Assembly (NCBI GenBank): GCA_903868145.1
Contig: CAIPTY010000071.1
Coordinates: 1-64,000, forward strand
From: an uncultured Desulfuromonadales bacterium
GTDB taxonomy: Bacteria > Desulfobacterota > Desulfuromonadia > Geobacterales > Pseudopelobacteraceae
Direction of reading: 5' to 3'
DNA: 64,000 nt
Shown: one piece after another, positions 19,896 to 23,378 of the stretch
How the letters are laid out: each line of letters opens with the position of its first letter
Position numbering within the stretch: position 1 is the stretch's first letter
Notes under the pieces: generated by a model
Told to the model about the DNA's origin: nothing
The model's database searches: none
The model's input: only the letters and a program-made list of their open reading frames with translations
Translations under genes and position numbers: made by a program

Positions 19896-20195
19896 CTACT
19901 CGGGATTTGGGGGCTCTGTGATTTTTGTAATTCTTTTTTCCGGGTCACCATACTCAGGATAATACGTGTACGTGATGGTAATCTGTTTTTTCGCATTTTG
20001 AAAACTCAGCAATTCATCCTCAAAATCCCGGACGTTGGTAATCAGGTTGAGAATATTTATGTCATTTCCCGTTTTTATTTTAATTTTGCCATCGCCGGGT
20101 CGTCTCGCTTCAAAGCTGAGAATTGTTCCGCTCATCTGACCTGTGCAGCCCAAAATAGCGAGACAAATCACACACAACAAAGCCCGTTTTAACAT
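19896..20195 (-). CDS. Small lipoprotein of unknown function
   Basis: The 99-residue protein has a signal ending in LAILGCTGQ, a lipobox with Cys near residue 17. The mature part (KIKIKTGNDINILNLITNVR, then YTYYPEYGDPEKRITKI) is probably mostly strand and has no recognised motif. AGGACTC precedes the start. It stands alone between eutBC and the DUF2786 gene. Confidence 0.6.
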   Translation of the reverse strand: MLKRALLCVICLAILGCTGQMSGTILSFEARRPGDGKIKIKTGNDINILNLITNVRDFEDELLSFQNAKKQITITYTYYPEYGDPEKRITKITEPPNPE

Positions 20196-20315: not shown

Positions 20316-21020
20316 TTATCGGGGCAGCATCCTCTCTGCGTGAACCCCACCGGCGATCCCCTTGTGAATCCCGATCTCTCTGCCATCCGCCTGGCCTTTA
20401 CCGTAGGCATCGGCGTTGATGTAACTCTTACGGCTCCGTACCGTTCGCAGATTGCCAAGTTCGGTCATAGTCTGCCTGATCAACCCCTCCTTGACGGGAA
20501 CAAGTGCCGTGCTCGTTATAGGTGTCTGAATCTTCTGCTCGCGAAGCCGGGCGGATATGGTGCTCGCCGCTCCAAGGAGGTACGATTGTTTGAGAAGCTC
20601 CCGATTCCTCCCGGTGAAGCGCCCATTGACGTGGTGCTTCATGTAGCTGCCGCAGAGCTTTCTGACGACCCGCTGCAGGTACGAGAAGGTATATGAGGCA
20701 ACCTGAACATCAGCACCAACACCAATGAAGATCATGCGTCCGGTTGCCGGGTAATGTACCGTCTGACAATCGAAAGCGGTGCTGACTCCTCCGAACAGGA
20801 GGCGCAACCATTTTGAGAGTACCTTCGGGACGGTCGTTTCGATCTTGTCCGCCTTGTCCGGTCTCTGTGTGGTGTCAATGTCGGCCATGGCCAGGTTGTG
20901 TTCAGAGAGAAGCCGGTGAGCGTGTGCAGCGGCAAGAGCAGCTTCGTGTTCGTTCGAGCTTTGAGCCAGGGCCAGCAGTTTTTTTATTTTCTCGATGATC
21001 GGCGGGGTATTGTTTATCAT
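20316..21020 (-). CDS. DUF2786 domain protein
   Basis: The 234-residue protein begins with the DUF2786 motif: IIEKIKKLLALAQSSNEHEA, then AAHAHRLLSEHNLAMADID. This is a helical unit often found in phage and plasmid proteins. A second region (WLRLLFGGVSTAFDCQTVH, YLQRVVRKLCGSYMKHH) matches the DUF7168-like part that often follows it. The C-terminus is basic (RTVRSRKSYINADAYGKGQADGR). No biochemical function is known. The phage/plasmid distribution and isolated position suggest acquisition. It is not obviously co-transcribed with its neighbours. Confidence 0.7.
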   Translation of the reverse strand: MINNTPPIIEKIKKLLALAQSSNEHEAALAAAHAHRLLSEHNLAMADIDTTQRPDKADKIETTVPKVLSKWLRLLFGGVSTAFDCQTVHYPATGRMIFIGVGADVQVASYTFSYLQRVVRKLCGSYMKHHVNGRFTGRNRELLKQSYLLGAASTISARLREQKIQTPITSTALVPVKEGLIRQTMTELGNLRTVRSRKSYINADAYGKGQADGREIGIHKGIAGGVHAERMLPR

Positions 21021-21049: not shown

Positions 21050-23317
21050 CTATTCACCAACCGTCCAGTCATAGCTGCTGTAGACTTTGGTATTCCGGCT
21101 GCCGTATTCGCCCTTTGCTTCGATCACGGTACTGGAACCCGGAACGGGAATCACCATTTTCTTATCCAGATTATCTTTCATCTGGCCAATCGCAGAGAGA
21201 AAAATACTGAGATCTTCGATAAAATAATCATCACTTATGTGCGGATAGGTCTTACCGGACATTTCGTTACTCCCCTGACACTGGACTTTCCAGGCCACAC
21301 CGGTAAGCTTGGGATGCAGATCTTTAGCCAGGCCACGGTCTGTCACCCGGCAGGCTGAGGTCATGACCATGTCATAGGTATGGTTTTTTGTGTTTGCAAG
21401 TTTGTAGCGGACCGACTGCTGCGCACCGATCTGCATCGGAAAGAGACTCCCCTTCAGCTCATCGATACTCTCGATGACTCCGTTGCTCCCGCTTTTGGTA
21501 GTAAAACCCAGGTTCAGGACATTTCCGCATAAGTAACTGGTTGAAGTGGCAAGATCCGAGTAGCTGTAGGTATTATTCATGGCATAACACTTGTCTCCAA
21601 GCGGCATGAATTCCTTTTTTTCCGAGGAATCCGTGGGTTTCGGAGTTGCCAGGGTTCTGCTCTTTGATCCGGTGTATTGAAGTTGCGACGTGGAGTGTGA
21701 GGTGACGCTGATCGGGCGGGGGCGCGGCAAGTTTCGATAGGCCTCAGAGCTCTCGAGAGTCTTCCAGACCGTCTCGCTCACCGTAAAGGGAAGTACAGGG
21801 CGTGTCGGAGTGCGACGATATTCTTCTTCCTTCTGGCGTGCCAGCTCCACATGGCGGCCGTTGGGATACTTCTCGAGATAGCCCCGCATGGCAGCGCTGG
21901 TGGATGAGGCCAGTGCATTCTTCCATTGTGTCTCCTCTTCACGAACGGCTGTCTCTGTTTTCAGTCTGCTCAATCGCGAGGGTATGAGTGCCGCATATTT
22001 TCCGGACGGATACCGGTTGATATAGTTCTGGTATGCCGTTTCACTATTGTCACGTTCGGCGTCCGCCCATGCCTCCTGCTCTTTTTTCACCTCTGCGGCC
22101 GTCGCCTCGTCGTCAAACTTCTTGAGCCTCGCCCGAGCCAGGGCCAGGTATCGGCCCTTGGGATACTGGATCAGATAAACCTTGTAATCGTCCCTGAGCC
22201 CGCCGCCATCCACGGCCTTCCAGAGTGATGCTTCATTATCATCAGAGCCGCCGGGCGACGCTGGCGGGACCGGGTTCTGTGCCGGCCTGCTCGCCTCCAG
22301 CGGCCTTCTGCCCTTGAGTTTGGCAATCTTTACCTTTGCCTGGGACGCATGCCGCCCTTTCGGATACTGCTTCAGATACTCCCTGAATACAGCCGCATCG
22401 TCACTATCAGCGATTTCCACCCACAAATCCTCCTCGATCTGCGATGCGGTGCGTACAGCAGGCGCTTTCACGTCCGGTGGTGCAATCCTGCTCCCGGTTG
22501 CAGCCGGTCGCCCTTCGCCCCTGCGAAAATAAAACGTACCCAGGGATTGATCGTAAAGTGCGGGCACCTGCTCATGCCCGACGGTTTTTGCCATCTCCAC
22601 AACCTCTTCCCGGACGCTTCTCAGCACCTCGCTGACCGATACACCCTGCCTCTCCATTTCCTTCAGGAAAATACGGGTGAAGACACCGTTGGGGTTCGTG
22701 TCATTATTGCCCAGCCGATCGAGCGCCTGTTGACCTGTTCCGGCAGAATAGAGCACCATCTGCCCGGTTGCCGCCGTGGTCGGCGCAAGGCCGCGTCCGC
22801 CGATGGCCCGGCCCGTCTGCTTGAACGGGTTGTTCCGGCAGGCATCGACAATCGCCAGCGTAAAGCGGGCCTTCTGTTCCTGCAGATCGTCCAGCACCCT
22901 CTGCAAGGGCACCGCATCGTCCTTGACCTGCTCCTCACTGTCACTCCGGATATCCACCGGTAGCAGATAGTTGGAAGCAGCCAACTGAACGCCGTGGCCG
23001 GAGTAGTAGAAGACCGCCTCGTCCCCTCCGCTCACCTGTGATTTGAAGGTGCGCAGTGACGCTTTCAATGTGCTGAGATCGGTATCCAGCCTGAGGGTGA
23101 CTTGGAAACCGGCCTGCTCCAGCGCCCTGGCTATGGAGCGGGCATCGGCCCGTGCGTTGTTCAGCGCCTGCAAGCTTTTGTAACTGTCGTTACCTATGAC
23201 CAGCGCAACACGTTTGCCGCTCGTGGAATGCACCGCAAGGCCGCGATTATCTGCCGCCAGAACCGAGCTCTGGATGAAAAACAACGAGATTGTCACAACG
23301 AGCAAAAGGTGTTGCAT
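21050..23317 (-). CDS. Secreted caspase-like (metacaspase/peptidase C14) protein with four YPxG repeats
   Basis: After a signal peptide (MQHLLLVVTISLFFIQSSVL) residues 30-240 form a caspase-fold domain: RVALVIGNDSYKSLQALNNA, the catalytic His in VFYYSGHGVQL and the catalytic Cys in AIVDACRNNPF. Residues about 295-520 hold four copies of a module of the form W...A...YL..YPxGRHA.LA...L. The C-terminal 200 residues are beta-rich and unrecognised. The ATG at 23317 is preferred over 23377 because GGGAGAAGC precedes it and the signal begins there. Both dyad residues are present, so it may be an active arginine/lysine-specific protease in the periplasm. The target and partners are unknown. Confidence 0.82.
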   Translation of the reverse strand: MQHLLLVVTISLFFIQSSVLAADNRGLAVHSTSGKRVALVIGNDSYKSLQALNNARADARSIARALEQAGFQVTLRLDTDLSTLKASLRTFKSQVSGGDEAVFYYSGHGVQLAASNYLLPVDIRSDSEEQVKDDAVPLQRVLDDLQEQKARFTLAIVDACRNNPFKQTGRAIGGRGLAPTTAATGQMVLYSAGTGQQALDRLGNNDTNPNGVFTRIFLKEMERQGVSVSEVLRSVREEVVEMAKTVGHEQVPALYDQSLGTFYFRRGEGRPAATGSRIAPPDVKAPAVRTASQIEEDLWVEIADSDDAAVFREYLKQYPKGRHASQAKVKIAKLKGRRPLEASRPAQNPVPPASPGGSDDNEASLWKAVDGGGLRDDYKVYLIQYPKGRYLALARARLKKFDDEATAAEVKKEQEAWADAERDNSETAYQNYINRYPSGKYAALIPSRLSRLKTETAVREEETQWKNALASSTSAAMRGYLEKYPNGRHVELARQKEEEYRRTPTRPVLPFTVSETVWKTLESSEAYRNLPRPRPISVTSHSTSQLQYTGSKSRTLATPKPTDSSEKKEFMPLGDKCYAMNNTYSYSDLATSTSYLCGNVLNLGFTTKSGSNGVIESIDELKGSLFPMQIGAQQSVRYKLANTKNHTYDMVMTSACRVTDRGLAKDLHPKLTGVAWKVQCQGSNEMSGKTYPHISDDYFIEDLSIFLSAIGQMKDNLDKKMVIPVPGSSTVIEAKGEYGSRNTKVYSSYDWTVGE

Positions 23318-23378
23318 GATGCTTCTCCCCCATTCAAACGGGTTAGGGACTGGAAACGTATTCATTTGGGAGTTCAAT

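Follow-up and report, generated by a model that had tools for sequence, protein, structure and literature searches.

Bacterial caspase homologues have been described with FGE, WD40, TPR and Sel1 domains, and signal peptides have been suspected in them (PMC3501461, PMC3355149, PMC6426788, PMC10907252, PMC8283722, PMC7159879). Two of these reports mention fused FGE and repeat domains as well as N-terminal helices that could be signal peptides (PMC3501461, PMC6426788). The extracellular YARHG domain, a predicted helical module of ~70 residues and four helices, also occurs as a fusion with a secreted Bradyrhizobium caspase (PMC3355149). Much of the surveyed discussion of bacterial caspase homologues concerns programmed death.

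Here, we describe a caspase-like protein encoded on the reverse strand of a 64,000-nucleotide stretch of DNA from an uncultured Desulfuromonadales bacterium (the window). The protein consists of a signal-like start, a Peptidase_C14 domain, four repeats that we term W-YPxGR, and a C-terminal domain (C-dom) (Table 1). With the orthocaspases and metacaspases that carry accessory domains it shares the C14 domain with its His-Cys pair (PMC3501461, PMC6426788); it differs from them in its W-YPxGR unit and C-dom, which stay below every Pfam and NCBIfam cut-off. That bacterial caspases can be exported and carry accessory domains is already known; for the repeat and the tail of this protein, the model libraries searched contain no model. 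YARHG is not among the Pfam matches listed for the protein at E up to 1. A word search of titles and abstract beginnings in part of the literature, made by name and not by sequence, found neither the W-YPxGR repeat nor C-dom named.

Table 1. Positions in the window of the caspase-like protein, its parts and the genes downstream of it. A5 is the caspase alignment; G numbers denote genomes.
Feature	Position	Strand	Basis or remark
Whole ORF, 755 aa	21050..23317	(-)	ATG at 23317, stop at 21050-21052, open over 755 codons; read from sequence
Shine-Dalgarno-like GGGGGAG	23325..23331	(-)	7 nt upstream of the ATG; read from sequence
Signal-peptide-like N-terminus, residues 1-21	23255..23317	(-)	Hydrophobicity
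Peptidase_C14 domain, residues 35-259	22541..23215	(-)	Pfam PF00656, E 1.6e-31
Asp58, S1-pocket position	23144..23146	(-)	Aligns with MALT1 Asp; Asp in caspase rows
Catalytic His108	22994..22996	(-)	H in 26/26 caspase rows of A5; motif YYSGHG
Asp158, S1-pocket position	22844..22846	(-)	Aligns with MALT1 Asp; 26/26 caspase rows
Catalytic Cys160	22838..22840	(-)	C in 26/26 caspase rows of A5; motif VDACRNN
Asp200, S1-pocket position	22718..22720	(-)	Aligns with MALT1 Glu; 26/26 caspase rows
W-YPxGR repeat 1, residues 296-335	22313..22432	(-)	Profile; model helices 291-302, 308-317, 324-336
W-YPxGR repeat 2, residues 363-402	22112..22231	(-)	Profile and model
W-YPxGR repeat 3, residues 414-453	21959..22078	(-)	Profile and model
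W-YPxGR repeat 4, residues 462-500	21818..21934	(-)	Profile and model
C-dom, predicted all-beta, residues 503-755 (~250)	21053..21811	(-)	Relatives in G115, G276, G046, weakly G003
First C-dom cysteine pair, C577 + C597	21527..21589	(-)	Both in this protein and G115; both missing in G276
Second C-dom cysteine pair, C656 + C680	21278..21352	(-)	Both in this protein, G276 and both G003 proteins; both missing in G115
DUF2786/DUF7168 protein	20316-21020	(-)	Phage family phrog_421, 1.6e-48
99-aa ORF	19896-20195	(-)	Lipobox-like LAILGC start; no Pfam/NCBIfam match over cut-off
Fused EutB + EutC (ethanolamine ammonia-lyase large and small chains), 707 aa	17674-19797	(-)	

The catalytic domain resembles MALT1

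Among solved proteins, the catalytic domain is closest by sequence and by fold to the paracaspase MALT1. The PF00656 match reaches 110.2 bits against a curated cut-off of 21.4, which places the domain in the C14 family, and covers model positions 1–228 of 233; MALT1 aligns up to residue 274–303 in most rows, ranges that bear on whether the protein is an orthocaspase in the sense of PMC6426788, a prokaryotic p20 lacking p10. The closest solved sequences are human and mouse MALT1 (PDB, E 1.1e-09). Comparing the predicted structure with solved folds gives MALT1 3uo8_C as the best match (Z 28.2, rmsd 2.5, 223 residues aligned), followed after MALT1 by caspase-6 with a Z of 24.3, and Foldseek retrieves MALT1 3v4o_A at E 5.1e-15. 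The caspase-like nature and the intact His-Cys dyad that had been read from the sequence earlier are thus confirmed, with H108 and C160 as the pair. The dyad is intact in all 31 listed homologues, all of them found by their likeness to this caspase domain.

Three acidic residues, Asp58, Asp158 and Asp200, align with acidic residues of MALT1 that we take to line its S1 pocket for a basic P1 residue. The Asp58 column of A5 counts 27, as one non-caspase row also shows Asp. Since these positions align with MALT1 and are conserved, and since the dyad is kept, the protein likely cleaves after Arg or Lys. A5 holds 26 caspase rows, with L058 omitted and L015 trimmed, and leaves out L035, L038, L039, L043, L049 and L050 of the 31 homologues (L numbers denote loci). 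Unlike MALT1, the protein is bacterial and probably exported, and it carries repeats and C-dom instead; Ig and death domains of the MALT1 type gave no Pfam match at E up to 1.

The signal peptide proposed in the earlier note is borne out as a probable export signal. The N-terminus contains the hydrophobic stretch LLLVVTISLFFI followed by VLA/A, with a Kyte-Doolittle mean of 3.06 over 12 residues; against a signal peptide, its n-region, MQH, has no Lys or Arg and hence no positive charge. A hydrophobic stretch near the N-terminus is present, at a loose threshold, in 35 of 36 proteins tested, the exception being L043. Judged by this hydrophobicity, the protein is probably exported from the cytoplasm.

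Four W-YPxGR repeats are predicted to form an alpha-solenoid

With a profile of 18 units taken from 13 other proteins (omitting L051, which is near L047, and L011, which is near L010), exactly four W-YPxGR units are detected in the protein, with i-Evalues of 8.9e-13 to 7.1e-10 (Z=1000). Their six pairwise local scores range from 54 to 71, whereas 3000 pairs of shuffled units gave a mean of 19.5, an SD of 4.2 and a maximum of 50. The number of copies therefore agrees with the earlier note. Its description of the unit needs correction, as the unit measures 40 ungapped residues and not roughly 50, and YPxGR lies at positions 24–28 of 40 (A7 numbering) and not at the end. Of the motifs, YPKGRH, YPSGK and YPNGRH were recovered, and the full set reads YPKGRH, YPKGRY, YPSGKY and YPNGRH. 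The four repeat tryptophans are spaced 67, 51 and 48 residues apart, and W5, P25 and G27 are invariant across 22 units.

The structure prediction that had been suggested as a check returns a helical solenoid for the repeats and an all-beta fold for C-dom. In the full-length model (28 rows), each unit is predicted as three helices, and the long helices 391–423 and 442–471 join one repeat to the next. The pLDDT of the repeat block is 84–97, except in linkers, where it is 34–75 over residues 331–360. The repeats are thus predicted to form an alpha-solenoid, a plausible binding or spacing scaffold. A known family that would explain them was looked for, and none reaches the Pfam or NCBIfam cut-off. 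The nearest likeness is to periplasmic TPR proteins of the BamD, YbgF and TPR_6 type, with which the repeats share a YP turn and weak profile matches: BamD is linked by sequence at E 0.098 (PDB), and TPR_6 matches one of 22 units at E 0.11, below the TPR cut-off. The W-YPxGR unit differs from these in its 40 residues, three helices and invariant Trp.

Repeats of this type are no peculiarity of the protein, as related caspases with other tails contain them too. In its own genome, seven matches with E <1e-13 all lie within three caspase ORFs; two weak ones (8.4e-04, in an ORF that is FecR/TPR-like by eye, and 0.15) come in addition. A search of 271 class genomes yields 25 units at the 1e-05 threshold, spread over 11 genomes: 19 in caspase ORFs (the ORF at L076 judged by eye), three in a 450-aa protein of G115, two in other ORFs (L077, L078) and one at a contig edge (L079). 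The ORF at L077 (1438-2655, G268) is lipoprotein-like and has a W-YPKG repeat and, by eye, no caspase domain.

Related proteases can keep the catalytic part and exchange the tail

Comparing the protein with its relatives suggests a composite origin. It is 61% identical to an exported caspase of Gallionella (L008) over residues 7–274 and no further, while residues 345–755 are 44% identical to the 450-aa protein of G115. In G115, repeats and C-dom make up an ORF of their own, which has a signal-like start and follows a caspase ORF at a distance of 10 bp. The protein thus looks assembled from two sources, a Gallionella-like protease and G115-like repeats with C-dom. In the caspase tree, which leaves out L051 (near L047), its partner is L008 (97/86), and the two fall within a 100/100 group that also holds rows from Steroidobacteraceae, Nevskiaceae, Gammaproteobacteria and Mariprofundaceae; the tool flags this group, among others, for long branches that meet. 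It stands apart from three paralogues of its own genome (L016, L003, L004).

The same pattern is seen among the relatives, whose tails match FGE-sulfatase, Lcl_C, Sel1-like and PDZ domains in Pfam (PDZ in L042 and L049; Sel1 of L045 and L047 and Lcl_C of L004 lie below the Pfam gathering score). Between L016 and L050, an identity of 86% extends over 240 residues and is confined to the caspase domain, and L038 (Lcl_C tail) and L039 (FGE tail) share 77% identity over 309 residues. Tails are also kept, as in L039 and L049 (65% over 522 residues, both FGE), or shared, as between L045 and L028 and between L047 and L045. On the caspase tree, parsimony counts at least 10 tail changes, with 19 of 31 rows labelled, six states and no shuffle control; three of the labels (Sel1 of L045 and L047, Lcl_C of L004) come from the matches below the gathering score. 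These comparisons suggest that related proteases retain the cutting part and swap the tail. As the catalytic part is kept while tails are exchanged, the site or the timing of cleavage may be set by the tail. Several of the tails are of a binding or C-type-lectin type (PDZ, Lcl_C, FGE in Pfam); the fold of Lcl_C is that of C-type lectins, and FGE domains can act as enzymes as well as binders.

We therefore propose, with a probability of about one half, that the protein is a paracaspase-like protease that is exported, cuts specifically after Arg or Lys and is directed by an exchangeable tail. The catalytic domain would be the constant part and the W-YPxGR solenoid an arm or docking scaffold. C-dom, probably held by disulfides, would recognise or anchor to a periplasmic or cell-surface component and would thereby bring the protease to its target or switch it on. 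Proteins that look exported and combine a MALT1-like core with swapped tails lend themselves to testing whether domain exchange can target a protease. G115 provides a natural split of such a protein, so that guidance by the tail could be tested by joining the two halves.

The C-terminal domain

The earlier note had left the last 200 residues unrecognised. No Pfam or NCBIfam model indeed names C-dom, and its length is corrected to about 250 residues. A single-sequence search matches 3 of 277 class genomes; profile A3 matches 5 of 271, namely the protein's own genome, G115, G276, G046 and, weakly, G003 (E 6.2e-04 and 0.035, in two adjacent small ORFs). A phylum sample, which overlaps with the class sample, yields 2 of 395, its own genome and G500. 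The latter (E 0.007) was rejected as a relative, since inspection by eye shows its ORF to resemble DHH/poly(A)-polymerase proteins. The G046 copy stops early, 171 bp before the contig end. In the genomes of loci L008–L012, C-dom is found in none of five, which is weak evidence as these are MAGs. The two adjacent C-dom-like ORFs of G003 (L060, 4741-6283) encode 246 and 255 aa and have signal-like starts.

Modelled alone (6 rows), C-dom is all-beta after two short helices, with a pLDDT of 74.8 and a pTM of 0.69; the pLDDT falls below 60 from about residue 703 onward. The full-length model has a pTM of 0.41 and does not resolve the placement of C-dom relative to the rest. For the C-dom model, Foldseek gives no match with E of 0.001 or below, and the highest probabilities belong to nitrobindin rows with rmsd >8. 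The best fold match in VIA is 6ntr_D (EipB/DUF1849), with a Z of 7.6, an rmsd of 4.2 and 161 residues aligned, practically level with outer-membrane barrels (Z 7.0–7.1) and followed by YmcC-like proteins (Z 6.5–6.6); EipB/DUF1849 shows no match in sequence. Because the best Z is only 7.6, where values <8 may mean only a common arrangement, and because many of the 50 VIA rows listed are outer-membrane barrels, the list indicates a barrel-like, all-beta architecture without assigning a family. In Pfam, the porin family BBP2 is matched by one of six C-dom members (E 0.026) and DUF724 by two of six (best E 0.027).

Of the five cysteines in the mature protein, one is catalytic and four lie in C-dom. 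The latter are gained or lost pairwise among the relatives, with the equivalent of C597 in G115 one alignment column off, and in the model C577 and C597 lie at matching ends of the neighbouring strands 75–83 and 87–95. Taken from few sequences, this suggests that the pairs form disulfides, hence an oxidising compartment, in line with export.

A prophage origin of C-dom was rejected (viral_contigs gave eight pattern stretches, none confirmed as a relative), as was a plasmid origin (no relative in plasmids, query P0002). C-dom has no match in PHROGs, where query P0001 gave a weak match of the caspase part to phrog_36966 (7.1e-04) and one to phrog_2939 (0.044).

C-dom could also be the product that the protease sets free. 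For EACC1-associated caspases with variable C-terminal domains, a release mechanism has been proposed (PMC7159879), and the relatives studied here have the same layout of a constant caspase and exchangeable C-terminal domains. On a signal, the caspase would cut its own Arg/Lys linkers (336–360 and 500–508) and free a C-terminal effector domain. Consistent with this, basic residues occur in the linker sequences GRRPLEASRP and YRRTPTRP, and C-dom is encoded by a separate ORF in G115 and stands alone as C-dom-like ORFs in G003. However, the protein scores 68.3 bits with NF047832 against a cut-off of 140, is probably exported, and has tyrS and no EACC1 gene directly upstream. Moreover, the G276 protein lacks a basic pair before C-dom, several known tails are of the binding type, and R-P bonds are poor cleavage sites. 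We regard such a release as unlikely. EACC1 had no match at E up to 0.001 in the whole genome; the control genomes were silent too.

Against our preferred reading of a tail that aims the protease, C-dom is also present in G276 and, by weak matches, in G003, two genomes in which no caspase is found with the C14 profile, so its role need not depend on a protease. The proteins might instead be housekeeping periplasmic proteases in the manner of DegP/HtrA, with tails that read misfolded envelope proteins. PDZ tails in L042 and L049 and the faint fold likeness of C-dom to DUF1849 and YmcC-like proteins fit such envelope quality control, which would need no partner genes. Fold values in that range may, however, reflect a common arrangement only, and the distribution is patchy for a housekeeping function: at E 1e-20 the protein is matched in at least 20 of 271 class genomes (a lower bound, as at most three candidates were scored per genome; G276 through C-dom alone), and G001–G003, of the same genus as the source, have no C14 match. 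We therefore consider quality control quite improbable.

Genomic surroundings and distribution

The gene lies 61 bp from tyrS upstream and 29 bp from the DUF2786/DUF7168 gene downstream, which is followed by the 99-aa ORF and the fused eutB-eutC ORF. A conserved operon with tyrS or eutBC was rejected because, in six relatives bearing tyrS, the 3.4–9.2 kb after this gene match neither the caspase nor DUF2786, the 99-aa ORF or eutBC.

The earlier note had suggested a part in self-recognition or stress-induced death, for which we find no support: a Pfam scan of five neighbouring ORFs shows no immunity, toxin, EACC1 or STAND gene. An executioner in such processes or in phage defence would agree with the match to the PADLOC caspase model (E 3.5e-17), with the phage-type family of the neighbouring DUF2786 protein, and with a distribution that is patchy and shuffled and genomes that have several caspase genes, both reminiscent of conflict genes. 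At E up to 1e-05, the C14 profile finds eight matches in the protein's own genome, five in G046, four in G115 and none in G001, G002, G003 or G276. Yet the PADLOC match covers only 163 of 453 positions, the two downstream ORFs scanned have no PADLOC match, and export from the cytoplasm does not suit cytoplasmic executioners. Of the readings weighed here, this one appears the least probable.

An exported protease aimed by its tail, as we favour, could be part of a wider scheme, which we offer as a speculation of rather low probability. The proteins would form an envelope counterpart of EACC1-type systems. With a constant exported paracaspase, an arm of helical repeats and C-terminal sensors that are swapped quickly (C-dom, FGE, Lcl_C, PDZ, Sel1), they would sample ligands outside the cytoplasm and respond by cutting after Arg or Lys, as a reaction to phages, competitors or damage to the envelope.

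In G115 (L015, 140-7793), an Lnb_N protein is flanked by two caspase ORFs that share 79% identity over 568 residues and carry Sel1-like repeats (below the Pfam cut-off); the C-dom protein and a DUF4384 protein come after them. G046 (L052, 4869-10164) has tandem caspase ORFs followed by a lipoprotein-like ORF that is similar to that of G115 by eye. In the protein's own genome (L003/L017), a caspase-Sel1 ORF runs off the contig end beside an ORF that by eye resembles an IS630-like transposase.
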